In this document: positions 1-26,023 of the stretch, piece by piece
Position numbering within the stretch: the stretch's first letter is position 1
Layout of the letters: every line of letters begins with the position of its first letter
NCBI GenBank assembly: GCA_018242105.1
Contig: JAFECP010000042.1
Location: 1-33,716, forward strand
Direction of reading: 5' to 3'
Origin: Pseudomonadota bacterium
GTDB lineage: Bacteria; Pseudomonadota; Alphaproteobacteria; Micropepsales; Micropepsaceae
DNA: 33,716 nt
The notes under the pieces: generated by a model
The model's database searches: none
What the model saw: only the letters and a program-made list of their open reading frames with translations
What the model was told of the DNA's origin: nothing
Translations under genes and position numbers: made by a program

Positions 1-213
1 TTCCGGCAGCATGCCGACGATTTCCGAATGCGCGTGCTGCGAGATCTGGCGCACCAGAGTCTTGCGATAGGCGTCCGGCATCCAGTCCTTCGGCTCGATG
101 AAATCATCCGCCGCGACACGGGCTTCAAACGCTTCCAGCCGCGCGGGATCTTCCACCACGGCGGGCGCCGCCGAAGTCCTCTGGCTCTTGTCCTTGAGCT
201 CGGTCGTATACAT
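1..213 (-). CDS. paaA: Phenylacetyl-CoA 1,2-epoxidase subunit PaaA, N-terminal part (runs off left edge)
   Basis: The 71 visible residues begin [11 protein letters not shown] and contain the stretch [22 protein letters not shown] followed by [10 protein letters not shown], which is characteristic of PaaA, the catalytic di-iron subunit of the ring 1,2-phenylacetyl-CoA epoxidase (PaaABCE). The family is about 310-330 residues, so most of the protein lies outside the window. The ATG at 211-213 is preceded on the minus strand by GAGGAA with a 6-base spacing, a good ribosome binding site. A PaaR-type palindrome lies 34 bases upstream of the start. The remaining epoxidase genes (paaBCDE) would be expected further left. 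The family call rests on recognised sequence; the complex role is established family knowledge. Confidence 0.93.
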
Positions 214-246: not shown

Positions 247-270
247 AATAAACCGACCGGACGGTCAATT
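247..270. promoter_or_regulatory. Candidate PaaR operator before paaA
   Basis: Inverted repeat with arms AATAAACCG (247-255) and CGGTCAATT (262-270) around the 6-base centre ACCGGA. The arms match at 7 of 9 positions. It lies 34 bases upstream of the paaA start and overlaps the end of paaI. Two more copies of the same pattern occur in this cluster (728-751 and 8127-8150). The site is seen directly; binding by the TetR protein encoded at 8231-8833 is inferred. Confidence 0.75.
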
Positions 271-700
271 AATCCGGCTTGAGGACCGGCCCGCCCAGTG
301 AGCGGGAAAGCCCTTGGAAAACCGCGATTTTCTCGCCCTTCTGGTTGGTCACCGTCACGGCATAAACGCCCGAGCGGCCGGTCAGCGCCTGCTCCCGGCA
401 TTCGGCCACCAGCCGGTCGCCTTCCCGCCCCGGCGCTAGGAACGAGATGGTCGCGTTCTGCGCCACCGTCTCCACATTGCGCGAGTTGCAGGCATAGGCG
501 AACGCCGTATCCGCCAGCGAGAAGATCATGCCGCCATGGCAGGTCTTGTGACCGTTGAGCATGGCCGCCCGCACCACCATCGCGATGCGCGCGTAACCTT
601 CGCGCGCTTCCTCGATTTCGATATTCCACGCAGCGCTCGTGCCTTCGCTGGCGCGAAGGTGATCGGCGATTCTGCGGGCAAGCTCATCTGTGGCGCTCAT
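269..700 (-). CDS. paaI: Hydroxyphenylacetyl-CoA thioesterase PaaI (hotdog fold)
   Basis: This 143-residue protein has the PaaI-type hotdog thioesterase signature: N49, H-G-G at 55-57 and the acidic residue D64 in FSLADTAFAYACNS. PaaI hydrolyses ring-hydroxylated phenylacetyl-CoA and related dead-end CoA esters, freeing CoA if the phenylacetate pathway stalls. The length is typical of the family. The ATG at 698-700 follows GATGAGGAACA on the minus strand, giving a usable ribosome binding site. It precedes paaA in the same direction with 55 bases between them, in which an operator-like palindrome sits. The gene is divergent from paaG, and the shared 104-base intergenic region carries a second operator-like site. 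Confidence 0.93.
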   Translation of the reverse strand: MSATDELARRIADHLRASEGTSAAWNIEIEEAREGYARIAMVVRAAMLNGHKTCHGGMIFSLADTAFAYACNSRNVETVAQNATISFLAPGREGDRLVAECREQALTGRSGVYAVTVTNQKGEKIAVFQGLSRSLGGPVLKPD

Positions 701-804: not shown

Positions 805-1596
805 GTGGCTTACGAAACCATTCTGTTCGATGTGGCGGACGGCGCGGCGCGCATCACGTTGAACCGGCCGGACCGGCTCAATTCCTTCACCGTGCAGATG
901 CACAGCGAAGTCACCGATGCGCTCTCTAAAGTGGAAAGCGATGCGGGCATCCGCGCATTGTTGCTGACCGGCGCGGGCCGCGGCTTTTGCGCGGGACAGG
1001 ATTTGAGTGATCGCGCGGTGGCGCCGGGCGGCGAAGGCGTCGATCTCGGCGAGTCGCTGGAGAACCGCTACAACCCGCTCGTCAAACGCATCATGGGATT
1101 GGCCAAGCCCGTGGTCTGCGCGGTGAACGGCGTCGCCGCCGGCGCGGGTGCGAACATCGCATTCGCCTGCGACATCGTTCTGGCGGCGAAGAGCGCAAAG
1201 TTCATTCAGTCCTTCTCCAACATTGGTTTGGTTCCAGATTCCGGCGGCACTTGGATATTACCGCGCCTCGCGGGCCATGCGCGCGCGATGGGACTGGCAC
1301 TGACGGGTGAAGCGTTGAGCGCCGAGAAAGCCGAACAATGGGGCATCATCTGGCGCGCGGTGGATGACGCGGAACTGAAAACGGAATCCGGCAAGCTGGT
1401 GGAGAAACTGGCGATGGGGCCAACGAAAGGCCTCGCTGCCATCAAGAGTGCGATGCAGCGCGGCTGGCGTAACGAATTGAACGCACAGCTCGATCTCGAA
1501 CGCGATCTGCAGCGCGAGCTGGGCCGTTCGCAGGATTACAAGGAAGGCGTCGCCGCTTTCGGTGAAAAGCGCGCGCCCAGGTTCAAAGGCCAATAG
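805..1596 (+). CDS. paaG: PaaG: 1,2-epoxyphenylacetyl-CoA isomerase (enoyl-CoA hydratase family)
   Basis: The 263-residue crotonase-fold protein closely resembles PaaG, which converts ring 1,2-epoxyphenylacetyl-CoA into oxepin-CoA. Visible hallmarks are LNRPDRLNSF (19-28), GAGRGFCAGQDL (56-67), the oxyanion-hole segment CAVNGVAAGAGAN (105-117) and GLVPDSGGTW (141-150) with the acidic residue D145. I chose the GTG at 805 because GGGAGG (794-799) sits 5 bases before it and the product begins MAYETILF, matching the family length of about 262. An in-frame ATG at 700 would add 35 residues covering the operator and is unlikely. An in-frame GTG at 799 is possible but overlaps the ribosome binding site. 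It is the first gene of a paaG-paaZ-paaK run. Confidence 0.94.
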   Translation: MAYETILFDVADGAARITLNRPDRLNSFTVQMHSEVTDALSKVESDAGIRALLLTGAGRGFCAGQDLSDRAVAPGGEGVDLGESLENRYNPLVKRIMGLAKPVVCAVNGVAAGAGANIAFACDIVLAAKSAKFIQSFSNIGLVPDSGGTWILPRLAGHARAMGLALTGEALSAEKAEQWGIIWRAVDDAELKTESGKLVEKLAMGPTKGLAAIKSAMQRGWRNELNAQLDLERDLQRELGRSQDYKEGVAAFGEKRAPRFKGQ

Positions 1597-1613: not shown

Positions 1614-3617
1614 ATGAAATTGCAAAGCTACGTCGCGGACCAATGGATCGCGCCGACGGGAAATCTCACGCCTATCGCTTCGGCGGTGACGGGTGAGGCG
1701 GTCGCTGAAACCGGCGCGACGGTGCGCGACTTCAAGGCGATGCTCGATCATGCGCGCAATGTCGGCGGCCCTGCCCTGCGCAAGATGACCTTCCACCAGC
1801 GCGCCAAGATGCTCAAAGCGCTGGGCGATGCGGTGATGGCGAAGAAGGATGCGCTCTACGAACTCTCTTACAATACAGGCGCGACGAAAGCCGACAGCTG
1901 GATCGACATCGAAGGCGGCGCGGGCACACTGTTCGCCTATTCCTCCAAAGGCCGCCGCGAGCTGCCGAACGACACCATCATCGTGGAAGGCGCGCCCGAA
2001 GGATTGTCCAAGCGCGGCACCTTCATGGGCCAACATGTGCTCACCTCGCGCCAGGGCGCGGCGGTGCATATCAATGCGTTCAACTTTCCCGTCTGGGGCA
2101 TGCTGGAAAAGCTCGGCCCCACATTGCTCGCCGGCATGCCCGCCATCGTGAAGCCCGCGACGGCGACGGCCTATCTCACCGAGGCCGCGTTCCGCATCAT
2201 GATCGAAGCGAATGTGCTGCCGAAAGGCGCATTGCAGCTCATCATCGGCCCGACGGGCGATCTGTTCGATCATCTCACCGGACAGGACGTCGTGTCCTTC
2301 ACCGGCTCCGCCGACACGGCGCAGAAGCTGCAGCGCCATCCGGTTGTGGCGCGTGAAAGCGTGCGCTTCATCGCCGAGCGTGACTCGCTCAACGCCGCGG
2401 TGCTGGGGCCGGACGCCGTGCAAGGCACGCCGGAATTCGATCTCTTCGTCAAAGAGGTCGTGCGTGAGATGACGGTGAAAGCGGGCCAGAAATGCACCGC
2501 CATCCGCCGCGCGCTGGTGCCCGCCGCGCAGATGGATGCCGTGGAAGCCGCGTTGAAAGAGGCGCTCGGCAAGATCGTCGTCGGCGATCCGCGCGACGAG
2601 AAGACCCAGATGGGCGCGCTTGTCTCCACCGCACAGCGCAACGATGTGCGCGAAAAGATCGACACGCTGTCGAAAGAAGCGCGCATTGTGTTCGGCGATC
2701 CGGGCAAAGCGGAGGGCAAAGGCGCGTTCCTGTCGCCGGTGCTGCTGCGTTGCGACGATCCGGCGAAAGCACAGCGCGTGCACGACACCGAAGCGTTCGG
2801 CCCGGTTGCAACGCTGATGCCGTACAAAGACATCGGTGAGGCCATCGCGTTGGTGAACCGTGGGCAAGGTTCCTTGGTGATGTCGCTCTACACTTACGAT
2901 CCCAAAGTTGCGCGCGATGTGCTGACCGGTTCGGGCGCATTCCACGGCCGCCTACTCATTCTGGATCGCGATTGCGCCAAGGAATCTACCGGACACGGCT
3001 CGCCGCTTCCGGCATTGATCCATGGCGGCCCCGGCCGCGCAGGCGGCGGTGAAGAGATGGGCGGCCTGCATGGCGTCTATCATTATATGCAGCGCACCGC
3101 GCTACAGGGTTCACCCCGCATGCTCACGGGCGTGACGCATGAATGGATGCGCGGTGCGCCGGAGATGCGCGAAGGCCCGCATCCCTTCCGTTTGCGTTTC
3201 AACGAGCTGGAGCTGGGCAAGACGCTCGTCACAAAATCGCGCACCATCACCTTGGACGATATCGAGAAGTTCGCGCATTTCACCGGCGATACCTTCTACG
3301 CGCACATGGACGAAGAAGCGGCGAAGGCCAATCCGCTGTTCGGCGGGCGCGTGGCGCATGGCTATCTGCTGCTCTCCTTCGCGGCAGGATTGTTCGTCGA
3401 TCCGCCGCCGGGGCCGGTATTGGCCAACTACGGCCTCGACAATCTGCGCTTCACCAAGCCGGTGAAGCCGGGGGACAGCATCACCGTGCAACTCACCGCG
3501 AAATCCAAATCGCTGCGCAACCCCGAAATGGGCGAAGTGCGCTGGCAGGTGATTGTGACCAACCAGAACGGCGAACTCGCGGCGACCTACGAGCTGCTGA
3601 CGATGAACGCGGTGTGA
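1614..3617 (+). CDS. paaZ: PaaZ: bifunctional oxepin-CoA hydrolase / semialdehyde dehydrogenase
   Basis: This 667-residue fusion has an N-terminal aldehyde dehydrogenase (about 1-505) and a C-terminal MaoC-type (R)-hydratase domain (about 520-667). PaaZ opens the oxepin ring of oxepin-CoA and oxidises the resulting aldehyde to 3-oxo-5,6-dehydrosuberyl-CoA. The catalytic pair of the dehydrogenase is visible as E255 (FIAERDSLNAAVL) and C294 (GQKCTAIRR). The hydratase pair is D559 and H564 in FTGDTFYAHMD. Both active sites therefore look intact. AGGAG at 1603-1607 lies 6 bases before the ATG. The stop shares one base with the paaK start (TGATG), suggesting translational coupling. Confidence 0.96.
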   Translation: MKLQSYVADQWIAPTGNLTPIASAVTGEAVAETGATVRDFKAMLDHARNVGGPALRKMTFHQRAKMLKALGDAVMAKKDALYELSYNTGATKADSWIDIEGGAGTLFAYSSKGRRELPNDTIIVEGAPEGLSKRGTFMGQHVLTSRQGAAVHINAFNFPVWGMLEKLGPTLLAGMPAIVKPATATAYLTEAAFRIMIEANVLPKGALQLIIGPTGDLFDHLTGQDVVSFTGSADTAQKLQRHPVVARESVRFIAERDSLNAAVLGPDAVQGTPEFDLFVKEVVREMTVKAGQKCTAIRRALVPAAQMDAVEAALKEALGKIVVGDPRDEKTQMGALVSTAQRNDVREKIDTLSKEARIVFGDPGKAEGKGAFLSPVLLRCDDPAKAQRVHDTEAFGPVATLMPYKDIGEAIALVNRGQGSLVMSLYTYDPKVARDVLTGSGAFHGRLLILDRDCAKESTGHGSPLPALIHGGPGRAGGGEEMGGLHGVYHYMQRTALQGSPRMLTGVTHEWMRGAPEMREGPHPFRLRFNELELGKTLVTKSRTITLDDIEKFAHFTGDTFYAHMDEEAAKANPLFGGRVAHGYLLLSFAAGLFVDPPPGPVLANYGLDNLRFTKPVKPGDSITVQLTAKSKSLRNPEMGEVRWQVIVTNQNGELAATYELLTMNAV

Positions 3618-4888
3618 TGTTGCCCATCTTCGCATCGCGCGCGGAGCTAGAAGCCGAGCAGATCAAACGGCTGCAATGGTCGCTGGCACATACTTACAGG
3701 CATGCGCCCTACTACCGCGCGAAATGCGACGCCGCGGGCGTCAGGCCGGACGATCTGAAAACACTGGCTGATCTGGCACGCTTTCCCTTCACGTTGAAGA
3801 GCGATTTCCGCGAGAACTATCCCTTCGGCATGTTCGCCGTGCCGCACGATCAATGCGTGCGGCTGCACGCCTCATCCGGCACCAGCGGCAAGCCGACCAT
3901 CGTGGGCTACACACAGAACGATCTCGATCTCTGGAACACGCTGATCGCGCGCTGCATCACGGCAGCGGGTGGCAAGCGCGGTGACGTTCTGCACAATGCT
4001 TACGGCTATGGCCTCTTCACCGGTGGCCTTGGCCTGCATGGCGGCGCGGAGAAGCTAGGCTGCGTCGTCGTGCCGGCAAGCGGCGGACAGACGGAGCGGC
4101 AGATCCAGCTCATCACCGATCTGAAGCCGCGCGTCATCTGCTGCACGCCTTCATATATGCTCGCGCTTGGTGAAGCATTGGAGCGAGCCGGCATCGATCC
4201 GCGCAGTACGTCGCTCGAAATCGGAATTCATGGCGCCGAGCCCTGGAGCGAAGAGATGCGCTGCGAGATCGAGAAGCGCTTCGATATCGCGGCGCTCGAC
4301 ATCTACGGCTTGTCAGAAGTGCTTGGCCCCGGTGTCGCGCAGGAGCGCGCCGATGCGCGAGGGAGCCTGACGGTGTGGGAAGACGCTTTCCTGCCAGAGA
4401 TTGTCGATCCTGACACCGGCGAACCGCTACCGGACGGCGAAGAAGGCGAACTGGTGTTCACCTCGCTGTCCAAAGAAGCTCTGCCGGTCATCCGCTATCG
4501 CACCGGCGATCTTTCGCGGCTTTCCGCGCCGGTGGGCGATGTGCCGATGCGGTGCATGGATCGCATCACCGGCCGCAGCGATGACATGCTCATCATCCGT
4601 GGCGTGAACATCTTTCCGCGCCAGATCGAAGAACTGATCGTGTCGGAGCCGGTGCTGTCGCCGCACTACCGCATCGATGTGCATCGCGAGGGCGCGCTCG
4701 ACCGGCTGGTCGTCACCTGCGAGGCCGCGGGGGCTTGCGATATCGCCACTTGCGATACCGCGCGCGAGAACGTGTCGGTGCGGATGAAGTCGCGGTATGG
4801 CTTGCACGCGGAGATCGTCATCGCCGATCCGGGCTCGCTGCCCCGTTCCGAAGGCAAGGCGAAACGGGTGTTCGACCACCGGAAATGA
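3617..4888 (+). CDS. paaK: Phenylacetate-CoA ligase PaaK
   Basis: The 423-residue adenylate-forming enzyme activates phenylacetate with ATP and CoA to phenylacetyl-CoA, the first step of the pathway. The phosphate-binding loop ASSGTSGKPT is at 85-94. Further motifs are YGLSEVLGPG, the hinge region YRTGDL and RSDDMLIIRGVNIFP, and a C-terminal SEGKAKRV with a likely catalytic lysine. The ATG at 3617 overlaps the paaZ stop by one base. The reading frame stays open upstream into paaZ, but the upstream part has no PaaK similarity. The gene ends directly against the stop codon of the convergent E2 gene with no spacer, leaving no room for a separate terminator. Confidence 0.95.
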   Translation: MLPIFASRAELEAEQIKRLQWSLAHTYRHAPYYRAKCDAAGVRPDDLKTLADLARFPFTLKSDFRENYPFGMFAVPHDQCVRLHASSGTSGKPTIVGYTQNDLDLWNTLIARCITAAGGKRGDVLHNAYGYGLFTGGLGLHGGAEKLGCVVVPASGGQTERQIQLITDLKPRVICCTPSYMLALGEALERAGIDPRSTSLEIGIHGAEPWSEEMRCEIEKRFDIAALDIYGLSEVLGPGVAQERADARGSLTVWEDAFLPEIVDPDTGEPLPDGEEGELVFTSLSKEALPVIRYRTGDLSRLSAPVGDVPMRCMDRITGRSDDMLIIRGVNIFPRQIEELIVSEPVLSPHYRIDVHREGALDRLVVTCEAAGACDIATCDTARENVSVRMKSRYGLHAEIVIADPGSLPRSEGKAKRVFDHRK

Positions 4889-6037
4889 TCAGACTTCGGC
4901 CGGCCAGTTCTCCAGCGTCTCGACGAATTTCGCCAGCCAAGCATTCGTCTGGAACGCGTCAATCACGCGATGGTCGATGGTGAGCGTCACATAGGCCATC
5001 GGGCGGATGACGATCGCATCGCCCCGCACCACGGCGCGCTTCTCCAGCTTGCCGACGCCCAGGATCGCCGATTGCGGCTGGTTGATGATGATGGGCGCGG
5101 CCACCAGCGAACCCGATACGCCGTGATTGGAGATGGAGAACGTGCCGCCGCGCACGTCGTCCTGTGACAGTTTTCCGCTGCGCGCTTTCTCCGTCATTTC
5201 GGTGAGGCGTTTGGCGATATCGAGCAGCGACAGGGTCTGCGCGCGGTGGATCACCGGCACGATCAGGCCCTTCTCGCCCAGCGCCGTGCCGATGCCGATG
5301 TTCACATCGTCATAGATATCGATGCGGTCGTCATACCAGCGTCCGTTCACCGCGGGCGCGGCGCTCATCGCGGCCACGCAGGCCGCCACGAAATAGGCGG
5401 TGAAGGTAAGATTCGCGCCGTCTTGCGCGAAGACATCCTTGTGCGCGGCGCGATGGGCGGTGATGGCGCTGAAATCGGCCTCGAACACGGCGGTGACATG
5501 CGGCGCCGTCTGGACGGAATGGGCGAGGTGTTCGGCGATGCGCTTGCGCATGGAGTCATGCGGCACGCGCTTCACGCCCGCGACGGGTGCTTTCGCGCGG
5601 CGGTCCAGTTCGGCCTGAATGTCCTCGCGCGTCAGCCGCGCGCCGCCGATCGGCACGTCGCGCGCGTCCAGCCCATTGTCCGCCAGCATCTTGCGGATGC
5701 CGGGCGGCAGTTGATCGCTCGGGGAAGCCGTGCGCGGCGAGGCTGTTTTCGGCGCGACGATACCGGCGCCTTGCGCCATCGCTTTCGCGGTTTCTTCCCC
5801 CGCGCTGCCGGCGGCGATGCGGCCGAGCACCGTGCCGGGCTCCACTTCCGCGCCGTCTTCGACAAGGATTTCCGACAGCACACCCGCCGATGTCGCGGCG
5901 ACTTCCACCGCGACCTTGTCGGTTTCCAGTTCGACGATGGGGTCGTCCACCTTCACGGTGTCACCCACCTTCTTCAGCCACGCCTTGACGACGGCCTTGG
6001 TGCCTTCCTGTTCGGTGGGAACGAGAATGTCGGTCAT
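4889..6037 (-). CDS. Dihydrolipoyl acyltransferase (E2) of a 2-oxoacid dehydrogenase complex
   Basis: The 382-residue E2 has an N-terminal lipoyl domain (1-76) with the lipoylated lysine K41 in VELETDKVAVE, a peripheral-subunit-binding domain (about 109-143, PPGIRKMLADNGLDARDV) and a catalytic acyltransferase domain (about 155-382). The active-site motif reads DHRVIDAF (H356, D360); most E2 proteins have DHRxxDG, so the glycine is replaced by alanine. The ATG overlaps the E1 stop by four bases (ATGA), so E1 and E2 form one transcription unit. No E3 (lipoamide dehydrogenase) gene is in the window. The acyl substrate is not readable from sequence; branched-chain or aryl 2-oxoacid complexes are the likely options. 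Confidence 0.92.
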   Translation of the reverse strand: MTDILVPTEQEGTKAVVKAWLKKVGDTVKVDDPIVELETDKVAVEVAATSAGVLSEILVEDGAEVEPGTVLGRIAAGSAGEETAKAMAQGAGIVAPKTASPRTASPSDQLPPGIRKMLADNGLDARDVPIGGARLTREDIQAELDRRAKAPVAGVKRVPHDSMRKRIAEHLAHSVQTAPHVTAVFEADFSAITAHRAAHKDVFAQDGANLTFTAYFVAACVAAMSAAPAVNGRWYDDRIDIYDDVNIGIGTALGEKGLIVPVIHRAQTLSLLDIAKRLTEMTEKARSGKLSQDDVRGGTFSISNHGVSGSLVAAPIIINQPQSAILGVGKLEKRAVVRGDAIVIRPMAYVTLTIDHRVIDAFQTNAWLAKFVETLENWPAEV

Positions 6038-8094
6038 AGGCTGGTCAGTTCTTCCATTTTCGCGCGGATGCCGTCGACGGAGGGCAGCGCCCATTCCATC
6101 AGCGCCGGATTGTGCGGGCTTGGAATATCCGGCATCGCGAGGCGCGAGACCGGCGCGTCCAGATCGAAGAAACATTCCTGCGCCACGACGGCAGCAATCT
6201 CCGCGCCGAAACCGGCGCTCATCAGGTCTTCGTGCACGATCAGACAGCCGCGCGTGCGCTTCACCGATGCCAGCACGGCTTCGCGGTCCCACGGCATCAA
6301 GGTGCGCAGGTCGATGATCTCCACCGACAAGCCGTCCGCCGCCTGTTCGCAGCGTTCGACCATCGCGCCCCAGGTGACGATGGTGAGGTTATTGCCTTCC
6401 TGCACGATGCGCGCCTTGCCGAAGGGCAGCACGAAATCGTCGCCCGGATAGGGGCGGCGCGCGCTGGTGGCGTCCAGCATGGCGCGATGCTCGAAGAAGA
6501 TCACCGGATCGTTGCCGCGCAGGCTCGCGCGCAGCAGGCCCACCGCGTCTTCCGCATTGGACGGCACGGCCACTTTCCAGCCCGGCGAATGGACGAACTG
6601 TACCTCGTTGGTCTGGCTGTGCCAGGGATCGCCGCATTTGAAGAAACCGATGGGCATGCGCACGACCATCGGCGCGGCGAAGCGGTTGTTGGTACGCCAG
6701 CGCATGGTGCCGCAATCGTTGAGCTGTTCCATCGCTGGGTCTGCATATTTGCGGAACTGGATTTCCGGCACCGGCATCAGCCCGGCAATCGCCATGCCCA
6801 CGGCGCGGCCGATGATGCCCTCTTCCGACAGCGAGGTGTCGAACACACGCGCGACACCGAACTTCTCCTGCAGGCCGAGCGTCACCGCATGCACACCGCC
6901 CTTGGGGCCGACATCTTCGCCGAACACCAGCACGCGCGGATTGATTTCCAGCTCATGATCCAGAGTGCGGCGGATTGCCGTGACCATGTTGATGCGCTGG
7001 CCTTCCGGCTGTGCCTCTTCGCTGGCGGCGGGCGCATTGTAGCCGGCGTTGGCCTGCCCGCCCTTCTCCTGCATCTTGCCTTCGAAGAAGACGTTTTCCG
7101 TGGTGCGTTCCGGATCGGTGACGGGGCGCGCCTCGGCACTCACACGCGCTTGCTCCACGGCACGTTGCGCATCGGCGGCGATCTTGTCCCATTCCTTCGC
7201 ATCGAACAGATCCTGCAGCCTGGGCAACGGGTCACGCGCCCATTCGGATTTCACGAAGGATTCGGATTTGTAAGTTTGCGTGTCCTGGAAGGAATGGCCT
7301 TCAAGGCGCGGCACGGTGAGACGTAGCAACACCGGCGCGCGTTGTTCGCGCACGAAAGTCACCGCCTCGTCGATCAATGACGCCGCTTCTTCGGGATTGG
7401 CGCCATCGCCCGCGATCACCTTGAGCCCGTTGAAGCTGGAAAGGTTCGCCGCGATGTTCGCGCCTGGCGTCTGAAGGTTGCTCGGCACCGAGATGCCGTA
7501 ACCGTTGTCTTCTATATAGAAGAGCATCGGCAGCTTGAGCGTGGTCGCCATGGTCAGAGCAGACCAGAAGCCGTTGGTGGCCACCGAGGCATCGCCACCG
7601 AGCGCCACGGCAATGGCGTCGCTGCAATCTTTTTCCTTCAGAACCTTCGCGCGGTATTCCAGCGCCTGCGCCCACCCGGCGGTGGGCGTGTATTGCGCGC
7701 CGACGCCGCCGCACATGGGCAGCGCGCTCGCGCCGGCCTTGTTCGGATAGTTGAACACCGCGCCGATGTCGCGGCCATCGCTGTAACCGCCGGCACGCGC
7801 CATCGAGGAGCCGAGCGCATCGGCGGGATCGACACCCAGCGCCAGCAGAATAGGCCGCGAGCGGTAATAACCGCAGATCGCATCGTCCTTGCGCGTGAGC
7901 TTCAGCCCCAACAGGATCTGCGCCATGTCGTGGCCGCGCGCTGAGAACTGGTAGAAAATCTTGCGCTCGGGGACGAGCGTCTTCTCTTCCAGCGAATCCA
8001 GCGCCCGCGAGACATGCAGATGATAGGCGACCGCGCGCCAGTCCGGCGCGGCAGCGTTGGCACCTTTCACCTTCTCCCGCAGGCTTGCGGACAT
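6034..8094 (-). CDS. Fused E1 alpha-beta subunit of a 2-oxoacid dehydrogenase (TPP-dependent)
   Basis: The 686-residue protein joins both E1 halves in one chain. The alpha part (about 1-330) holds GYYRSRPILLALG (75-87), GGYSDGRD and the thiamine diphosphate motif starting GGDASVATNG (166-175) and ending EDN at 195-197. The beta part (about 368-686) begins INMVTAIRRTLDHELEIN, with GEDVG (392-396), SLSEEGIIG holding the candidate catalytic Glu, and WHSQTNEVQFVHSPG. It decarboxylates a 2-oxoacid and transfers the acyl group to E2. An alanine- and charge-rich linker joins the halves. An operator-like palindrome shared with paa genes lies 33 bases upstream, which suggests an aromatic substrate such as phenylpyruvate; branched-chain 2-oxoacids remain possible. 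Confidence 0.92.
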   Translation of the reverse strand: MSASLREKVKGANAAAPDWRAVAYHLHVSRALDSLEEKTLVPERKIFYQFSARGHDMAQILLGLKLTRKDDAICGYYRSRPILLALGVDPADALGSSMARAGGYSDGRDIGAVFNYPNKAGASALPMCGGVGAQYTPTAGWAQALEYRAKVLKEKDCSDAIAVALGGDASVATNGFWSALTMATTLKLPMLFYIEDNGYGISVPSNLQTPGANIAANLSSFNGLKVIAGDGANPEEAASLIDEAVTFVREQRAPVLLRLTVPRLEGHSFQDTQTYKSESFVKSEWARDPLPRLQDLFDAKEWDKIAADAQRAVEQARVSAEARPVTDPERTTENVFFEGKMQEKGGQANAGYNAPAASEEAQPEGQRINMVTAIRRTLDHELEINPRVLVFGEDVGPKGGVHAVTLGLQEKFGVARVFDTSLSEEGIIGRAVGMAIAGLMPVPEIQFRKYADPAMEQLNDCGTMRWRTNNRFAAPMVVRMPIGFFKCGDPWHSQTNEVQFVHSPGWKVAVPSNAEDAVGLLRASLRGNDPVIFFEHRAMLDATSARRPYPGDDFVLPFGKARIVQEGNNLTIVTWGAMVERCEQAADGLSVEIIDLRTLMPWDREAVLASVKRTRGCLIVHEDLMSAGFGAEIAAVVAQECFFDLDAPVSRLAMPDIPSPHNPALMEWALPSVDGIRAKMEELTSL

Positions 8095-8126
8095 GCCCGT
8101 TTCCTTCCGGCCGGTCTTCCGCTAAT

Positions 8127-8150
8127 AATTAACCGAACGGACGGTCAATT
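8127..8150. promoter_or_regulatory. Candidate PaaR operator between E1 and paaR
   Basis: Arms AATTAACCG (8127-8135) and CGGTCAATT (8142-8150) flank the 6-base centre AACGGA, with 8 of 9 paired positions matching. It is nearly identical to the site before paaA (247-270). It lies 33 bases upstream of the E1 start, almost the same distance as in the paaA case (34), and 80 bases upstream of the TetR gene. This placement fits repression of E1-E2 and autoregulation of the TetR gene. Binding is inferred. Confidence 0.78.
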
Positions 8151-8230: not shown

Positions 8231-8833
8231 ATGGCGCGCACACAATCGGCTGACTATGCGATCCGGCGCGAGGCCATCGTGGACCGCGCGGCGGAACTCT
8301 TCGCGGAGCGCGGGTTCCTGGGCGCTTCGATCGCCGATCTTGCGGATACGCTGAAAACGTCCAAGTCGCTAATCTATCACTACTACGACTCGAAAGAGGA
8401 CATCCTGTTCGATGTCATGCACAGCCACGTTCGGGCGCTGCTGGATCAGGCGGAAGCGATCGCCGCCAAACCGCTTGCGCCCGCACAAAAGCTTCGCGCG
8501 CTGACGCAGGCTTTCATCGAACTTTATGTGGACGCCGCCGCGCGCCAGCGTGTGCTGCTGAACGAGCTTTCGCGGCTGCCGGACGAGCAGCGCAAGACCG
8601 TCGTCGGCATCCAGCGGCGGCTCATCGAAATCGTGGAGAAGATCGTTGGCGAATTGCGGCCCGAGCTTTCGGGACGTGCGGCGCTGAAGCGGCCTAGCGC
8701 TATGCTCTATTTCGGCATGATCAACTGGATGCACACCTGGCTCGATCCGGACGGCAAAGCCAGGCCGCAGCGCATCGCCGATCTCGCGGTGAGCACGTTT
8801 CTGGACGGAATTGAGAAGGCGGAACTGCCTTAA
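8231..8833 (+). CDS. paaR: TetR-family regulator, probable PaaR
   Basis: The 200-residue protein has an N-terminal TetR helix-turn-helix (about 14-60), including ASIADLADTLKTSKSLIYHYYDSKEDIL, and a C-terminal helical ligand domain ending MINWMHTWLDPDGKARP, which resembles TetR_C domains of acyl-CoA-responsive regulators. TetR-type PaaR proteins of proteobacteria repress phenylacetate genes and are released by phenylacetyl-CoA. The gene sits at the cluster edge, divergent from E1, with an operator-like palindrome in the shared promoter region. No strong ribosome binding site is visible before the ATG. The stop overlaps the convergent MFS stop by three bases within TTAA. The family is certain; the PaaR role follows from context. 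Confidence 0.85.
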   Translation: MARTQSADYAIRREAIVDRAAELFAERGFLGASIADLADTLKTSKSLIYHYYDSKEDILFDVMHSHVRALLDQAEAIAAKPLAPAQKLRALTQAFIELYVDAAARQRVLLNELSRLPDEQRKTVVGIQRRLIEIVEKIVGELRPELSGRAALKRPSAMLYFGMINWMHTWLDPDGKARPQRIADLAVSTFLDGIEKAELP

Positions 8834-10380
8834 TCCGCCGCGGCCACCGCGCCGCCGTGGCTGTAAGCTTTGCGGGCGATCCAGATCACGCCGATCAGAA
8901 CCACGCTCAGCCAGCCGGAAATCCAGAACAGATCCAGCGACGACAGCAGATAGGCTTGCTGCATCATCGTATGCGCCAGCGCGCCATAGGCTTGCAGATC
9001 GGTGAGGCCGAAGCTGTGCAGATGCGCGACGGCCTGTTGCATGACCGGGTCGAAAACCGAGGAATGATCCGCCATCCGGCTCTGATGCAGCGCCTCGCGG
9101 CGATCCCACAATGTCGTGATGATCGAGGCCGCGAAGCCACCGGCGGTGATGCGCGCGAAGTTGGAAATACCGGATGCGGATGGAATGCGCTCCGGCGGAA
9201 TTCCATCCAGCGAGATGGTGAGCAGGGCGACGAAGAAAGTACTCATCGCCACACCCTGCACCAGCATGGGCATGACGAAATCCCAGAAGCTTGCATCTTG
9301 CGTATAACCCGCGCGCATGAAGTAGGAGACGGTGAAAGCGACAAAGGCCACCGTCGCCACAAGGCGGGCATCGACCTTCGCCATGAAGCGCGCGGCGATC
9401 GGCGTCAGCACGACGGCCACCACGCCGCTGGGCGCCGCCACAAGGCCCGCCCACGTGGCGGTGTAGCCGACATTGGTCTGCAGCCATAGCGGCAGCAGCA
9501 ACACATTGGCGAAGAACAATGCGTAGCCCAGGCAGAAAGCGATGGTGCCGAAGGTGAAGTTCCAGAATTTGAACAGCGACAGATCGACAACCGGATGTTC
9601 CTCCGTCAATTCCCAGATGAGAAAGGCGCAAAAGCCGACGGCGGCGATGATCGCCTCTATGACGATCGAGGTGGAGGAGAACCAGTCCGCATCCTTGCCG
9701 GTGTCGAGCATCACCTGCAGCGTGCCAACCCACAGAACGAGCAGGCCCAAACCCACCGTATCGATGGGAAGCTGGCGCGTCGGCGTTTCGCGGTTGGAAA
9801 GATTGCCCCAGCACAGGAACGCCGCGGCCAATCCGACAGGCACATTGATGAGGAAAATCCAGCCCCAATGATAATTGTCGGAAATGTAGCCGCCGAGGAT
9901 CGGGCCCATGATGGGCGCAACCAGCGTGGTGATCGACCAGATGCCAAGGGCAGTAGCGCGTTTCTGCGGCGGGAAAATGGAAATGAGGAGTGCCTGCGAT
10001 CCCGGGATCATCGGGCCCGATATCGCGCCCTGCAGAACGCGGAAAGCGATCAGCGAGGACAGGCTCCATGCGATGCCGCACAGAAAGGATGCGAGCGTGA
10101 AACCGAGAACGGAAAACACGAAGGTGCGCACCACGCCATAACGCTGCATCAGCCAGCCGGTGAGCGGCACGGCCACGCCATTCGCCACCGCGAACGATGT
10201 GATGACCCAGGTCCCCTGGTTGACGCTGACGCCGAGATTGCCGGCGATGGTCGGCAGCGACACGTTGGCGATAGACGAGTCCAGCACCTGCATGAAGGTG
10301 CCGAGCGCCAGCGCGATCGAGGTGATCGCGAGCGGCAGGCCCGCAAGCGGTTTGAGTTCGGGTGTACCCTGGCCGCTCAC
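8830..10380 (-). CDS. emrB: DHA2-family MFS drug exporter (EmrB/QacA type)
   Basis: The 516-residue protein has about 14 hydrophobic segments. TM1 carries FMQVLDSSIANVSLPTIAG (D34 at the family position), loop 2-3 has RYGVVR (80-85), and the antiporter motif reads APIMGPILGG (155-164). It is expected to export hydrophobic compounds by proton antiport across the inner membrane. With the adjacent EmrA-like and TolC-like proteins it forms a tripartite pump. Translation starts at GTG (10378-10380), preceded by TGAGGAAC, whose TGA is the emrA stop; the genes are 10 bases apart and probably coupled. The substrate is unknown. Confidence 0.93.
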   Translation of the reverse strand: MSGQGTPELKPLAGLPLAITSIALALGTFMQVLDSSIANVSLPTIAGNLGVSVNQGTWVITSFAVANGVAVPLTGWLMQRYGVVRTFVFSVLGFTLASFLCGIAWSLSSLIAFRVLQGAISGPMIPGSQALLISIFPPQKRATALGIWSITTLVAPIMGPILGGYISDNYHWGWIFLINVPVGLAAAFLCWGNLSNRETPTRQLPIDTVGLGLLVLWVGTLQVMLDTGKDADWFSSTSIVIEAIIAAVGFCAFLIWELTEEHPVVDLSLFKFWNFTFGTIAFCLGYALFFANVLLLPLWLQTNVGYTATWAGLVAAPSGVVAVVLTPIAARFMAKVDARLVATVAFVAFTVSYFMRAGYTQDASFWDFVMPMLVQGVAMSTFFVALLTISLDGIPPERIPSASGISNFARITAGGFAASIITTLWDRREALHQSRMADHSSVFDPVMQQAVAHLHSFGLTDLQAYGALAHTMMQQAYLLSSLDLFWISGWLSVVLIGVIWIARKAYSHGGAVAAAD

Positions 10381-10390
10381 CGCGCGTTCC

Positions 10391-11542
10391 TCAAGCGCCG
10401 TTCTGCGCGAGGATTTGCTTGATCAACCGGCTAATGGAGGCATCGCTGTAATCGCCGATATAACCGCGCACCTCATGCTTGACGTTTGGCGCGCCGATCG
10501 AGGAACCGGCGGTATCGCGCACATCGACCTCGACATCCATCGAGAGGCCGACACGCAGCGGATGATCGCGCAACTCTTTGGGATCGAGCGCGATACGCAC
10601 GGGCACGCGCTGCACGATCTTGATCCAGTTTCCGGATGCGTTCTGCGGCGGCAAAAGCGCGAAGGCGCTGCCCGAACCGGCGCCGAGGCCCGCCACTTTT
10701 CCGTGATAGGTCATGCCGCCGCCATAGATGTCGGCAGTCGCTGTCACCGGCTGGCCGACGCGCATATCTTCGAGCTGGCCTTCCTTGAAGTTGGCGTCGA
10801 TCCACACGGTGTCGAGTGGGACGACCGCCATCAACGGCGTTCCTGCGGCGACCTGCTGGCCCACCTGCACGGTGCGCTGCGCCACCACGCCGTCCACGGG
10901 CGCGTAAAGCTTCATATGCGAGAGCGTGATGGCGGCAGAGCGCAATTGCGCGATGGCGGCCAGCACATCGGGATTGGTGGAGACTCGCGTGCCCTGCACC
11001 GCCGCCTGCGCTTGCGCCAATCCGCTCTGCGCGGATTTTAGGCTGGCTTGTGCGGACGCAACGGCATCGCGCGCGTGATTGAGTTCTTCGCGCGAAACGG
11101 AGTCGCCGGCGGTCTGGCGGCGGCGATAATCGGCCTGCGCCTGATCGAGCGCGACGCGCGCGGCATTCACCTGTGCGTGGAACTGATCGACCTTGGAGAA
11201 ATTGGTGCGGGTGCCGCGCACGGCGCGCGCCAGATCCGCTTTCGCCGCTTCGAACGCAGCTTCCGCCTTGCTGGGATCGAACTCGATAAGAAGCTGTCCG
11301 CGCCGCACCGTCTGTGTGTTGTCGGCGTGAAGCGCCACAACGGTAGCCGGATCGCGGCTGGTGATCGATACCACGTCGCCGCCGACATAGGCGTCGTCGG
11401 TGGACACGAAATGGCGCGCGTAGAACAGCCAGTAGAGTCCGTAGATCAGCACGCCGGCGGCGACAGCGGCGGCCAGAATGGTCAACCAGCGGCGGCGCGC
11501 GTTCTGCGCATCGGTTTTGCCATTTTCGCTTGGATATTTCAT
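10391..11542 (-). CDS. emrA: HlyD/EmrA-type membrane fusion protein
   Basis: The 383-residue adaptor has a short cytoplasmic tail, one membrane helix (about 19-40) and a periplasmic part. The first biotinyl-lipoyl half motif (DPATVVALHADNTQTVRRGQ) is followed by an alpha-helical hairpin rich in Ala, Gln and Lys, then a second half (KLYAPVDGVVAQRTVQVGQQV) and a beta-barrel (DTVWIDANFKEGQLEDMRVG). This order is standard for EmrA. It bridges the MFS pump to the outer-membrane channel. The ATG overlaps the stop of the upstream TolC-like gene by four bases (ATGA), and the MFS gene follows after 10 bases. Confidence 0.93.
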   Translation of the reverse strand: MKYPSENGKTDAQNARRRWLTILAAAVAAGVLIYGLYWLFYARHFVSTDDAYVGGDVVSITSRDPATVVALHADNTQTVRRGQLLIEFDPSKAEAAFEAAKADLARAVRGTRTNFSKVDQFHAQVNAARVALDQAQADYRRRQTAGDSVSREELNHARDAVASAQASLKSAQSGLAQAQAAVQGTRVSTNPDVLAAIAQLRSAAITLSHMKLYAPVDGVVAQRTVQVGQQVAAGTPLMAVVPLDTVWIDANFKEGQLEDMRVGQPVTATADIYGGGMTYHGKVAGLGAGSGSAFALLPPQNASGNWIKIVQRVPVRIALDPKELRDHPLRVGLSMDVEVDVRDTAGSSIGAPNVKHEVRGYIGDYSDASISRLIKQILAQNGA

Positions 11543-12960
11543 CGGCTACGGTCCTGATCGTTGGAAGCAATGCCGGCTCTGGTATAGCCGCCACCCAGCG
11601 CCATCAGCAGCGACACGCGCGCGGACAGAAGATCGGCAGCGATCGACGCATCTTGCCGCTTGGCCTGGATGAGAACGTCTTCGGCGCTGAGCACATTGAG
11701 TTGCGGCGAAAGCCCGCTGCGGTAGCGCCGCGTGGCAAGATCGAAGCTCGCATTGGACGCGCGCAAGGCTTCGCCCTGCTGCGCGGCCTGACCTTCCAGC
11801 GCCTGAAGCTGCGTAATCGCATCGGCTGTCTGCTTTACGGCGCCGACGACAGACTCATTGTAATTGGCAACCGCTTCATCGAGCTGCGCGGTGGCGCCGG
11901 CATATTTGGCGCGCAATTCGCCCGCGTCGAAGATCGGCAGATGAATGGCCGGTCCGATGCCGTATTGACTGGAACTGCCGTTGAACAGCGTGCTCAGACC
12001 GATGGCGGCGAAGCCCGCTGCGCCAATCAGATTGATGTCGGGATAGAACGCCTGATGCGCAGCCTGACGGCCCGATGTGGCCGCATCGATGCGCGCTTCG
12101 GCGGCGGCGATGTCCGCGCGGCGCGCGAGAAGATCGGCAGGCAGCACTGCCGGGAGCGTCAGCGCGCTGCGGCTCAGGTTCGGCCGGGCGATGTCATAGG
12201 CATCCGCGCCGCGGCCGACGAGCGCTGCGATCTGATGCACCGCGAGATCCTTCACCGCCTGCGCGCGGATCAGGTCTTCCTTCGCGATGGCCAGAAGCGC
12301 CTTGGCCTGCTCGTCCGATGCCTTGCTGTCGAGGCCGCTGGTCACACGGCCCGCCGTCAGATGCAGAACGCCTTCGCGCTGCTTGACCGTTTCGGCCGCA
12401 ACATCCGCAAGCCGATAGGCGCGGTCGAGCCCGATATAGGCTTGCGTGACGGTGCCGGCGAGCGCCAGACGCGCGGCTTCCGCATCGAGCGCGGCGGCTT
12501 GGGCGCTGGAGCGCGCGGCATCCACCTCCGCGGCTTGCTTGCCGAACAGATCGAGCGACCAGGACAGATTGGCCTGCACCGTGCCAAACCATTGCATCGT
12601 TCCGGCATAAGGCGGCGGGATGATGTAATTGCTGCTGAAATGCGTGCGCTGGTCCTGCCCGTCGAGTGTGAGTTGCGGGTAAGTGGCGGCGCGGCTGACG
12701 GAGAGTTGCGCCTGCGCTGCGCGCATGCGCGCAAGCGCCACTTGCAGCGTCGGGCTTCCCTTGAGCGCCCGATCGACCAGCGCGTCAAGCTGCGGATCGC
12801 CGAAGGCTTTCCACCACGCATCTTCGATCGCGGGTGTTGGGGCGGCGCTCAAGCCGAGAGACTGAGGCTTGAGCGCCGTCTGGCTCGGGGCAGTGGATGG
12901 GGCGTCCACACATCCGGCCAACAAGCTTGTTGCGAGCAGAGCACCGAGAAGGCGTTTCAT
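11539..12960 (-). CDS. NodT-family outer-membrane efflux lipoprotein (TolC-like)
   Basis: The 473-residue protein starts with a lipoprotein signal ending LLAGC, putting the lipidated cysteine at residue 17. The mature part holds two outer-membrane efflux protein repeats, with typical segments DLFGKQAAEVDAARSSAQAA and RRADIAAAEARIDAATSGRQ, and GPAIHLPIFDAGELRAKYAG in the second half. It is the outer-membrane channel of the EmrAB-type pump encoded directly downstream. The start overlaps the marR stop by four bases and its stop overlaps the emrA start by four, so marR, this gene, emrA and emrB form one tightly coupled operon. Confidence 0.92.
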   Translation of the reverse strand: MKRLLGALLATSLLAGCVDAPSTAPSQTALKPQSLGLSAAPTPAIEDAWWKAFGDPQLDALVDRALKGSPTLQVALARMRAAQAQLSVSRAATYPQLTLDGQDQRTHFSSNYIIPPPYAGTMQWFGTVQANLSWSLDLFGKQAAEVDAARSSAQAAALDAEAARLALAGTVTQAYIGLDRAYRLADVAAETVKQREGVLHLTAGRVTSGLDSKASDEQAKALLAIAKEDLIRAQAVKDLAVHQIAALVGRGADAYDIARPNLSRSALTLPAVLPADLLARRADIAAAEARIDAATSGRQAAHQAFYPDINLIGAAGFAAIGLSTLFNGSSSQYGIGPAIHLPIFDAGELRAKYAGATAQLDEAVANYNESVVGAVKQTADAITQLQALEGQAAQQGEALRASNASFDLATRRYRSGLSPQLNVLSAEDVLIQAKRQDASIAADLLSARVSLLMALGGGYTRAGIASNDQDRSR

Positions 12961-13613: not shown

Positions 13614-15800
13614 CTAAAGCGTTGGAATTGCTTCGCCAGGACGATAGCGCCGCTCGACATGGCCCTTAAGGTCTTCCGGATAGAAGTAAACTTGTCGCAG
13701 CTCACCCCGCGCATAGCGAACGGCTTCGTCGTTGAAATGGGGCGACTTCGGATCGCCGCTCTCCCCGCCCGCGGTGATCGCGATGGCCCGGACTTTCGGC
13801 CCGAATTCCACAACCGCGACGAAGCTATTTCCGGACGTGCCATAATAGCGCTTGGTGTTCGGGTAGCGCTTGGCGCCGAATGAGGCGAGTGAACCCCAGC
13901 GCGATGACACGAACGGCACCGGAATGCTTGGCAAAGCGTCGTCGAAATGCGGTTCGATCGCATCGGTGACGCGCTGGAAGCGGTTGATCTCGCCCCACGG
14001 CGTGCGCCAGTTGCCGAAATCCTTCTGCAGGCGATCCGACGCCTCGGCGAGCGCCTTTAGCTTCTGCGCCGCCGTCGCATGATCGGCCATATAGTCATAA
14101 GGATTGACGCCCTGCGTCTTCGCGGCTTCGATGGTTTCATCCCACAGCGTGTCGCCCCAGAACACCGCGAGCGAGGTCGCCAATGAATGGTCCGACCATT
14201 TGAAATCCCAGCCGCGCAGAAGAGCGGCCTGCTCCTTCAGCCGCGCCTTCAGCGGATCGCGCGACGGCAAATCGTCATACGCCTTCACCAAAATCGGGAT
14301 GAGCCGCGCGAAGGCGGGCATATAGGGATCGAAGGCGGCAGCGAGCAATGAATCCGGCGTGAAGTCCTTGTGGCTCGACAACACGCGGATCGCGTGAATG
14401 CCGCGCGGCGTCTCGCCGGCTGTGTCCATATATTTGGGATAGTCCGCGCGCTTGGGGCTGTCGGCGCCCGCCGCCGAATAAGGCCAGTTGTTGCCGTTGT
14501 AGAGCCAGCCGTTTTTCGGGTTCACCACCTGCGGCAGATCGGCCAGCGGCGTTGGGCCCTGCCAGTCCGTCGCCGGATCGGAGCCATCCACCGGCTTGGT
14601 GTAGTCGAATTTATCGTTCCGCTTGGGCATGAATTGCGGCAGCAGGAATGCCGTCTCGCCCTTGTCGTCGGCGAAGATCGTGTTGTTGGACGAATTCGCA
14701 TCCAGCGCCGCGACTTTCATATAGGACGCATAGTCCGTCGCTTTGGTGCGCAACCAGCTTTGCTCCAGCGCCGCAATGGGTGTGTTCATCAGCGCCATGC
14801 TGATCCACTTGCCATTCGCTTCGCGCACAATGGGGCCATGGCTGGTGTAATAGGCGGTGAAGCTTCGTTCGCCTTTGCTGCCATCCGGTTTGCGATAGGC
14901 GATGGCGATCGCCTTCTCGCCCATCGGCCGCAGCCCGGCGCCATAGCGATAGAAGAGTTTGCCGTCCTTATGTACGACGTCTTCCGCGAACTCATCGACA
15001 TTGTCGACGGCGCTGGAGGTGTGCATCCAGCCGATGTGCGGGTTGAAGCCCTGATAGATGAAGAACTGCCCCCATGTGACCGCGCCATAAGCATCCAGCC
15101 CCTCATCGCTCGACATCTGCAATTCGGAGCGGAAGAAGAACGTGGTGTGCGGGTTTATGAGCAGCAGCGCATAGCCGTCGCGCGTGTCGGACGGCGAAAT
15201 GGCGATGCCGTTCGAGCCGCGCGGCTCGTGGAAAATCAACCCGCGCTCGTCGCGCGTCATGCCGAGCTTGCGGTCGCCGTAGAAATTCTCCAGTGGCGTC
15301 AGCTTCACGCGCTCGATATCGCCGCCGATGCTGCCCTCGCTGAACGACAGCGCCATCCACGGCTCAAAATGCGCAATCAGACGCGGCTTCACGTCCGGAT
15401 GTTTCGCGAGATAGAAATTTAGCCCATCCGCCCACGCGTTCATCAGCGCCTTCAGCCAGCCTGGGCTTTTGGCGTAATCGGCCTTGAGCACTTCGGGATC
15501 GATGAAAAGCCGTTGCCGCAGATCCTGCCAGATCGCGTTCTCGCCTTCGGCTTCGGCGGTGCGGCCCAGCGCGGTGATGTAGTTCGTCTCCACGCGATTG
15601 AAATCGTCTTCCGCCTGCGCATAGGCCATGCCGAACACCGCATCGGCGTCGGTTTTGCCGTGCACATGCGCGATGCCCCAATCGTCGCGCACGATCTCAA
15701 CGCGCGCCGCTTCCATGTTCCATCGTGCTTCGTCACGCGCATGGGCGGCGGAGGCCGCAAGCGCCAATGCGAAGATGGCAAGGAAACCGAGCGTGCGCAT
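13614..15800 (-). CDS. Penicillin acylase family Ntn-hydrolase, periplasmic
   Basis: The 728-residue precursor starts with a signal peptide (1-21, ending AHA). It continues with the family N-terminal block VEIVRDDWGIAHVHGKTDADAVFGMAYAQAEDDFNRVE in the alpha-chain region. The autoproteolytic site is RGSNGIAIS, giving S196 as the new N-terminal nucleophile after G195. Later blocks YQGFNPHIGWMHTSSAVDN and WSDHSLATSLAVFWGD fit the beta chain. Members hydrolyse amide bonds of acylated compounds: penicillin G, aculeacin or acyl-homoserine lactones. The ATG at 15798-15800 follows AGGGG with a 5-base spacing; upstream in-frame codons would hide the signal peptide. It is divergent from the HutD-like gene. 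Substrate is not readable; a phenylacetyl amide is attractive given the nearby paa genes. Confidence 0.88.
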   Translation of the reverse strand: MRTLGFLAIFALALAASAAHARDEARWNMEAARVEIVRDDWGIAHVHGKTDADAVFGMAYAQAEDDFNRVETNYITALGRTAEAEGENAIWQDLRQRLFIDPEVLKADYAKSPGWLKALMNAWADGLNFYLAKHPDVKPRLIAHFEPWMALSFSEGSIGGDIERVKLTPLENFYGDRKLGMTRDERGLIFHEPRGSNGIAISPSDTRDGYALLLINPHTTFFFRSELQMSSDEGLDAYGAVTWGQFFIYQGFNPHIGWMHTSSAVDNVDEFAEDVVHKDGKLFYRYGAGLRPMGEKAIAIAYRKPDGSKGERSFTAYYTSHGPIVREANGKWISMALMNTPIAALEQSWLRTKATDYASYMKVAALDANSSNNTIFADDKGETAFLLPQFMPKRNDKFDYTKPVDGSDPATDWQGPTPLADLPQVVNPKNGWLYNGNNWPYSAAGADSPKRADYPKYMDTAGETPRGIHAIRVLSSHKDFTPDSLLAAAFDPYMPAFARLIPILVKAYDDLPSRDPLKARLKEQAALLRGWDFKWSDHSLATSLAVFWGDTLWDETIEAAKTQGVNPYDYMADHATAAQKLKALAEASDRLQKDFGNWRTPWGEINRFQRVTDAIEPHFDDALPSIPVPFVSSRWGSLASFGAKRYPNTKRYYGTSGNSFVAVVEFGPKVRAIAITAGGESGDPKSPHFNDEAVRYARGELRQVYFYPEDLKGHVERRYRPGEAIPTL

Positions 15801-15922
15801 GAAAGCCCCTGTGAACGGTGGGCGCAAATCTGAAACATGCGGTTGGCGATGTCGATTCACCGGACGGCTTGTGCCGCGCGGCGAATAGACCGAGAAAGGC
15901 GGTATATTTTTTGGAGACGGGC

Positions 15923-16967: not shown

Positions 16968-18089
16968 ATGAGTCACCACATCACACAGACCACGCGCCTG
17001 AGCATCGTGCTGCTCGGATGTTTCCTCGTCGCCGGTTGTGGACAAGGCGCGCCGCCCAAGCGCCCGCCGCCGACGGTTGGCGTCATCGTGGTCAGGCAGC
17101 AGCCGGCGCAACTCACCGCCGAACTTCCCGGCCGCACGGATTCCTTTGCGGTGTCGGATGTGCGCCCGCAGGTCAGCGGCATTCTGCTCAAGCGTCTTTT
17201 CACCGAAGGCGCGCTGGTGAAGGCCGGGCAGCCGCTCTACCAGATCGATCCCGCGCCGTATCAGGCGGCCTATGACAATGCGAAAGCCGTGCTCGTTACG
17301 GCGCAAGCCAAAGCGCGGCGCTATGCAGCGCTCATGAAACTGAACGCGGTCGCGCCGCAGGACTATGACGATGCCCTCGCCGCCTATAAGCAGGCACAGG
17401 CGAACACCGAAACCGCGCGCATCAACCTGGACCGCACGCGCATCGTGGCGCCAATCAGCGGGCGCATCGGCCGCTCGTCCGTCACCGAAGGCGCGCTTGT
17501 CACATCGGACCAGACCAATGCGCTCGCCACGATTCAGACTCTCGATCCGATCTATGTGGACATCACGCAATCCAGCGTGGAGCTGCTCGACCTGAAGCAG
17601 GCGATGCAGGGCGGAAACCTCACGCGCAACGGCCCCGCTTCCGCGCGCGCGACGCTGACGCTCGACAACGGCACAAAATATCCGATGCCGGGCACCTTGC
17701 AGTTCAGCGAAGTCACCGTCGATCAGACAACGGGCGCAGTGACCTTGCGCGCGATCTTCCCCAACCCGGACGACATCCTGCTGCCGGGCATGTTCGTGCG
17801 CGCCACCATCATCGAAGGTGTCGATCCGCATGCGATCCTGATTCCGCAACAGGGCGTGGGCCGCAATGAAAAAGGCGATCCCACCGCCATCGTCGTCGAT
17901 AACAAAGGCATCGCGCGCTTGCGCCTCATCAAGATCTCGCGTGCCATCGGCGATAAATGGCTGGTGACCGGCGGACTGAAAGCGGGTGACAGGCTCGTCG
18001 TCGAAGGCCTGCAGAAAGCGCAACCCGATACGCCGGTCAACGCCGTTCCCGCCTCTTTCGTGAACAAGCCGCAGGCCGGTGCGCGCTAA
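16968..18089 (+). CDS. RND periplasmic adaptor lipoprotein (AcrA/MexA type)
   Basis: The 373-residue protein has a lipoprotein signal ending VAGC (lipidated C24). It then follows the AcrA plan: barrel part [26 protein letters not shown], lipoyl half [29 protein letters not shown], helical hairpin with the [27 protein letters not shown] block, second lipoyl half [19 protein letters not shown], and a distal beta domain. Adaptors of this type couple an RND pump to an outer-membrane channel. Its stop overlaps the permease start by one base (TAATG). The ribosome binding site is weak. A terminator-like hairpin lies directly upstream. Confidence 0.94.
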
Positions 18090-21000: not shown

Positions 21001-21217
21001 GCGTCCCATCCTGATGACATCGCTGGCTTTCATCGCGGGCGTGATGCCGCTGGTCGTTTCGAGCGGCGCGGGTGCTGCAAGCCAGAACGACATCGGCACC
21101 GGCGTGGTGGGCGGCATGCTCACGGCCACGGTGCTGGCGATCTTCTTTGTGCCGCTGTTCTACGAAATCGTGCGCGAACGCTTCAAAGGCAAGAAGCCGG
21201 ACGAATCCAAAGCGTAA
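18089..21217 (+). CDS. RND multidrug efflux permease (AcrB/MexB, HAE1 type)
   Basis: The 1042-residue inner-membrane pump begins [22 protein letters not shown]4 holds the proton-relay pair D409-D410 in [18 protein letters not shown], and TM10 has [14 protein letters not shown] with its lysine. Two large periplasmic loops and full family length are present. It exports hydrophobic drugs, dyes, detergents or solvents by proton antiport. It is coupled to the adaptor gene upstream. No outer-membrane channel gene follows: the next gene is a convergent permease of a different class, so the pump must borrow a channel encoded elsewhere, possibly one of the two NodT-type proteins in this window. Confidence 0.95.
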
Positions 21218-21249
21218 GCGTTCCAGGATCGGCATATGTCCAAGCTGCT

Positions 21250-21314: not shown

Positions 21315-21328
21315 AGAAGCCATAGACG

Positions 21329-24409: not shown

Positions 24410-24414
24410 GGGCG

Positions 24415-26005: not shown

Positions 26006-26023
26006 ATAAAAGAGGAATGCCCG

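Follow-up and report, generated by a model that had tools for sequence, protein, structure and literature searches.

The window analysed here, a stretch of 33,716 nucleotides from an alphaproteobacterium of the family Micropepsaceae (assembly GCA_018242105.1, contig JAFECP010000042.1), was found to contain a fused E1 (6034-8094, minus strand) and an E2 (4889-6037, minus strand) of the 2-oxoacid dehydrogenase type inside a cluster of phenylacetate (paa) genes. The pair is likely to form a dedicated phenylpyruvate dehydrogenase complex in phenylalanine catabolism (probability of about 0.75), the substrate being inferred from the genomic context. The original prediction had proposed a direct route from phenylpyruvate to phenylacetyl-coenzyme A (phenylacetyl-CoA), and the route was supported by comparative genomics, namely by the paa linkage, the constant presence of paaA, the adjoining transaminase, the separate branched-chain E1 of most carriers and the presence of carriers without PaaK.

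In the proposed route, an aromatic transaminase would convert phenylalanine to phenylpyruvate, followed by the conversion of phenylpyruvate, CoA and NAD+ to phenylacetyl-CoA, CO2 and NADH by E1-E2 together with an E3 (lipoamide dehydrogenase), which is presumably encoded elsewhere and common to other complexes. PaaABCDE, PaaG and PaaZ would then carry phenylacetyl-CoA into ring cleavage, so that neither free phenylacetate nor the ATP spent by PaaK would be needed, and PaaK would serve exogenous phenylacetate. A pyruvate dehydrogenase (PDH)-type E1-E2 pair seems, from genome comparison, to replace the usual activating enzyme PaaK in some bacteria. The wider proposal is somewhat better than an even bet: the family would be a widespread, unrecognised phenylpyruvate dehydrogenase of aerobic phenylalanine degradation which, with the adjacent transaminase, displaced PaaK in several proteobacterial lineages, in which phenylalanine would be broken down with no free phenylacetate as intermediate.

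Association with the paa genes in relatives

Neighbourhoods were counted in 80 E1-E2 loci from named genomes, with linkage defined as the presence of paa genes within 10 kb, and whole-genome searches covered 50 genomes of orthologue loci. The paa genes were found within 10 kb of E1-E2 in 43 of the 80 loci in several gene orders, with paaABCDE, paaG and paaZ as the recurring neighbours, and the linked loci were found to span Rhizobium, Sinorhizobium, Sphingomonas and relatives, Pseudoroseomonas, Pararobbsia and Pseudomonas. A lack of conserved paa linkage in relatives had been named as a point that would speak against the original prediction; the opposite, a strong linkage, was found. Within the same genus, E1-E2 was located inside the paa cluster in five genomes (G034, G023, G035, G013 and G003), with paaK present on a separate contig in G034 and not found in G003. 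In this last genome, paaZ matches were also observed in two overlapping frames (L054:13030-15046), for which a frameshift or mis-sequencing is possible. As a control, linkage of the fused E1 to paa genes (10 kb or less) was seen in 27 of the 50 whole genomes, whereas none of the 45 branched-chain-type E1alpha genes of the same genomes was found within 10 kb of paaA.

A transaminase for aromatic amino acids was found to abut E1-E2 directly on the same strand in 23/80 loci (11 upstream of E1 and 12 downstream of E2), and the four members tested scored 454-500 bits with family NF006719, over its cut-off of 377. The transaminase, E1-E2 and the paa genes together make up a predicted gene set for the conversion of phenylalanine to phenylpyruvate and of phenylpyruvate to phenylacetyl-CoA. 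A lipoamide dehydrogenase E3 (TIGR01350) followed E2 in 8/80 loci, no E3 gene was found beside E1-E2 within the window, and an Lrp/AsnC regulator was present near E1-E2 in 59/80 loci.

The paaA gene was found in 50/50 carriers of the fused E1 against 51/387 sampled Alphaproteobacteria (52 with the split gene of the present genome), which gave a Fisher value of 2e-37 that ignores shared ancestry and serves as a guide only. All four fused-E1 carriers in the 387-genome sample contained paaA. Within the genus, a strong PaaK was present in six genomes, all of them among the seven E1 carriers (Fisher 3e-6, shared ancestry ignored). The patchy distribution within the genus and the variety of gene arrangements speak against simple co-inheritance.

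PaaK, scored as absent when no match at E <= 1e-60 was obtained, was not found in 14 of the 50 carriers, seven of which were isolates and not metagenome-assembled genomes (MAGs), as judged by their record titles. The paa genes were located beside E1-E2 in 11 of these 14, 9 of the 11 also had the transaminase, and the 11 include isolates of Sphingomonas, Sphingosinicella, Sinorhizobium saheli, Sphingorhabdus and Allosphingosinicella. The 99% complete genome G311 was likewise paaA-positive, E1-positive and PaaK-negative, and probably duplicates one of the 14, since its contig coordinates agree with those of G427 (L064). Barring another ligase, E1-E2 would be the only visible source of phenylacetyl-CoA in the carriers without PaaK; a ligase of another family is possible.

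Several observations weigh against a dedicated phenylpyruvate dehydrogenase. No paa gene was found in the flank of 37/80 loci, some of which had short flanks, PaaK was also present in 36/50 carriers, and several of the PaaK-negative carriers were draft MAGs. Among carriers the enrichment for PaaK absence was weak (14/50 against 6/48, p=0.08), and neither PaaK nor the fused E1 was found in the paaA-positive genome G064 and in five paaA-positive genomes of family f70 (G107, G204, G283, G350 and G411). The absence of PaaK was rejected as a stand-alone proof because of this weak enrichment and the existence of such genomes. On a Shinella plasmid (L149:11399-17965), E1-E2-lpdA precedes an acyl-CoA dehydrogenase gene, and this stretch contains no paa gene; such company would suit an aliphatic acyl-CoA and is at odds with phenylacetyl-CoA being the sole product. 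The two E1f-specific peptide patterns (E1f, fused E1) with which the related loci were found also bear on the conservation described below, since the invariance of the pattern stretches is partly a result of this selection.

Shared operator and the TetR-family regulator

A palindromic operator TTAACCGAACGGACGGTCAA was predicted at 8129-8148, upstream of E1 and common to tetR, and a matching operator TAAACCGACCGGACGGTCAA was predicted at 249-268, upstream of paaA. The 29-base regions around the two sites were identical at 25/29 positions, and perfect matches to ACCGNNCGNNCGGT were found in the window only at 252-265, in the paaA promoter, and at 8132-8145, 38 bp before E1. The 20-base consensus (<=3 mismatches) had no other match in the window and none in 10 shuffles, and it matched both the E1 and the paaA promoters in six relatives (L050, L052, L054, L065, L069 and L080), in some of which the gap between paaG and paaI was matched as well. 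The operator-like site that had been claimed for E1-E2 and paaA stands, and the extended site, with its recurrence at the same two promoters in relatives, is significant. The 14-base core alone occurred 7 times in the 3.2-Mb genome and its reversed control 16 times, which is not significant; the core was dropped as operator evidence, being no rarer than chance genome-wide, and the extended site was used instead. Both conserved clustering (the 43/80 loci) and the shared operator (the six relatives) were found, which is consistent with membership of E1-E2 in the paa regulon.

The TetR-family regulator (8231-8833, plus strand), with TetR_N and TetR_C_24 domains, is proposed as a PaaR-like repressor of the cluster and probably represses E1-E2 and paaA through the common operator, the direction of regulation being presumed. 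The tetR gene was found to adjoin E1 in G023, G035 and G003 and to adjoin paaE in G030. TetR regulators usually bind their own promoter, and the E1-side operator lies in the intergenic region common to E1 and the divergent tetR, so that by itself it could reflect simple TetR autoregulation, in which case it would be silent on the co-regulation of E1-E2 with paa. This reading is unlikely, with perhaps one chance in a handful, because the operator is closer to E1 (about 35 bp) than to tetR (83 bp), the same operator recurs at the E1 and paaA promoters of relatives, and the neighbour in most other loci is the Lrp/AsnC regulator. It also concerns regulation only, whereas the linkage evidence for a phenylpyruvate dehydrogenase is independent of the operator.

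E1 and E2 proteins and their probable substrate

The fused E1, a thiamine diphosphate (ThDP)-dependent protein of 686 aa, was found to combine in a single chain an alpha-type E1_dh domain and, after it, the beta-type domains Transket_pyr and Transketolase_C, all three over the Pfam gathering score. The E2 (382 aa), a dihydrolipoyl acyltransferase, contained lipoyl and 2-oxoacid_dh catalytic domains, and the stop of E1 and the start of E2 were found to overlap by 4 nt (ATGA). The pair was located between paaK and tetR, as the earlier gene calls had stated, and these calls proved correct.

The catalytic residues His267 and His492, together with Glu424, were found to be invariant in 81 E1 orthologues, as were the ThDP-motif residues Gly166, Gly167 and Asn197, with position 168 occupied by either Asp or Glu. 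In E2, the lipoyl Lys41, followed by His356 and Asp360, was invariant in 78 orthologues. The peripheral subunit-binding domain of E2 gave no Pfam match, and a shortened look-alike was found at about residues 110-145, which looked canonical in the L055 and L056 orthologues.

E1 orthologues spanned 70-93% identity, and those in 61 related genomes were found to be 74-93% identical, with a drop to 34-36% for the next proteins, and the fused E1 fell into an orthologous group separate from the canonical branched-chain 2-oxoacid dehydrogenase (BKD), the own branched-chain E1 of the genome being 34% identical to it. By sequence inspection, the genome also carries a branched-chain E1 (C62), a pyruvate dehydrogenase (C16) and an acetoin-type E1 (C12). 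Related stretches numbered 471, which gives a family of at least several hundred members, named 'pyruvate dehydrogenase' or 'transketolase C-terminal domain-containing protein' in public records; in Sinorhizobium meliloti, the E1-E2 pair was located on pSymB, with E1 of strain 1021 at 27357-29414.

The residues Phe66, Tyr95, Met128 and His131 of the Thermus thermophilus E1alpha, which we take to be the branched-chain side-chain pocket, were compared by alignment. Phe66, Met128 and His131 were replaced by Tyr48, Ile110 and Asn115-Tyr116, respectively, with a 3-residue insertion, and Tyr95 corresponded to Tyr77 as the sole retained pocket position. The pocket residues of the fused E1 were fixed in 81 orthologues, with the exception of position 116. 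As judged from the alignment, the comparison is one that says 'not a branched-chain pocket' and does not say 'a phenylpyruvate pocket'. The AlphaFold2 model of E1, for which 14 orthologues were supplied, was poor (mean predicted local distance difference test score, pLDDT, of 56.8).

Alternatively, the complex might be an additional 2-oxoacid dehydrogenase, of branched-chain or broad specificity, that is a neighbour of paa by chance, with phenylacetyl-CoA formed as a side activity only. The PDB relatives of E1 by fold and domain are E1s of the branched-chain and pyruvate types, the acyl-CoA dehydrogenase gene of Shinella follows E3, and a full-strength separate branched-chain E1alpha was missing in 10/50 carriers, all of which would fit such an enzyme. 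It is nevertheless improbable, at odds of roughly one to seven, because a canonical branched-chain E1alpha (>=60% identity to that of the genome itself) was present in 40/50 carriers and never within 10 kb of paaA, paaA co-occurred in every carrier, the adjacent transaminase belongs to an aromatic family, and the branched-chain pocket residues differ. Least probable of all is a complex whose substrate is a different aromatic 2-oxoacid (indolepyruvate, 4-hydroxyphenylpyruvate or phenylglyoxylate) and which would yield indoleacetyl-CoA, 4-hydroxyphenylacetyl-CoA or benzoyl-CoA: the neighbouring transaminase family is broadly aromatic and the PaaI beside paaA matches a hydroxyphenylacetyl-CoA thioesterase model, whereas the constant partner is paaA of the phenylacetyl-CoA epoxidase, and paaABCDE, paaG and paaZ recur as neighbours.

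Locus layout and comparison with known systems

The 5' part of paaA (1-213, minus strand; PaaA_PaaC match C36:1-99) was truncated by the left contig edge, and the other part was found with paaBCDE at the end of contig C28 (PaaA_PaaC match C28:37329-37676). It was followed by the paaI thioesterase (269-700, minus strand; TIGR02286 above cut-off), the paaG isomerase (808-1596, plus strand; TIGR02280 above cut-off; open reading frame listed from 700), the paaZ ring-opening and semialdehyde dehydrogenase (1614-3617, plus strand; TIGR02278 above cut-off) and the paaK phenylacetate-CoA ligase (3632-4888, plus strand), which matched TIGR02155 with 630 bits, slightly below the cut-off of 646.

To the right of tetR, an EmrAB-type major facilitator superfamily pump with an HlyD adaptor and an outer-membrane protein was found at 8830-12960 on the minus strand, and the same block was present beside tetR-E1-E2 in the close relative L062 (L062:5100-9800). 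A penicillin-amidase family protein (13614-15860, minus strand; PF01804) is encoded some 5 kb away from the paa and E1-E2 genes. Certain members of this family free phenylacetate from phenylacetyl amides, and a link of this protein to paa is possible. The region 16968-33224 contained three more AcrB-family pumps of the resistance-nodulation-division type with adaptor proteins, together with a second TetR.

If the proposed function is true, it would be assigned to a family now labelled 'pyruvate dehydrogenase' or 'transketolase C-terminal domain-containing protein', and would connect phenylalanine directly with phenylacetyl-CoA in aerobic metabolism, at a saving of ATP. It would explain the use of the pathway by bacteria with paaABCDE and without paaK, and would alter the genome-based prediction of phenylalanine catabolism, phenylacetate release and tropone precursor supply.

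The BKD complexes (Thermus thermophilus 1UMB, Pseudomonas putida 1QS0/2BP7 and human 1DTW) were found to contain the same E1alpha/E1beta domain order, ThDP motif and catalytic His, and a lipoyl E2 with a DHRxxD active site, whereas the present E1 is a single chain with low identity to the branched-chain E1 of its own genome, has changed pocket positions and is accompanied by paa and the aromatic transaminase. The PaaK route by way of phenylacetaldehyde and phenylacetate likewise supplies phenylacetyl-CoA to PaaABCDE, but it requires free phenylacetate and ATP, and PaaK is the enzyme missing in 14/50 E1-E2 carriers. In ripostatin biosynthesis, a PDH-like complex reportedly loads phenylacetyl-acyl carrier protein. 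GapMind may list a phenylpyruvate 'PPDC' step, which the consulted passages of the GapMind paper do not discuss.

PglB/PglC of phenylglycine biosynthesis in Streptomyces pristinaespiralis is a PDH-like complex proposed to convert phenylpyruvate to phenylacetyl-CoA (PMC7089894). It shares the proposed reaction and a PDH-type E1, and is set apart by its description as an enzyme of secondary metabolism with separate alpha and beta subunits in Actinomycetota, whereas the present pair would belong to primary catabolism, with a fused E1 paired with paa. The same net step is carried out by the indolepyruvate:ferredoxin oxidoreductase IorAB of Aromatoleum, described as anaerobic (PMC9765128), and a direct route from phenylalanine to phenylacetyl-CoA was reported in Phaeobacter inhibens (PMC7497051), with the same step from phenylpyruvate. 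IorAB is ferredoxin-dependent and of another enzyme class, whereas a lipoyl, NAD-linked complex is predicted here. The net reaction itself is already known. A search of the open literature (subscription papers being outside its scope) yielded no description of a PDH-type complex acting on phenylpyruvate in paa catabolism.

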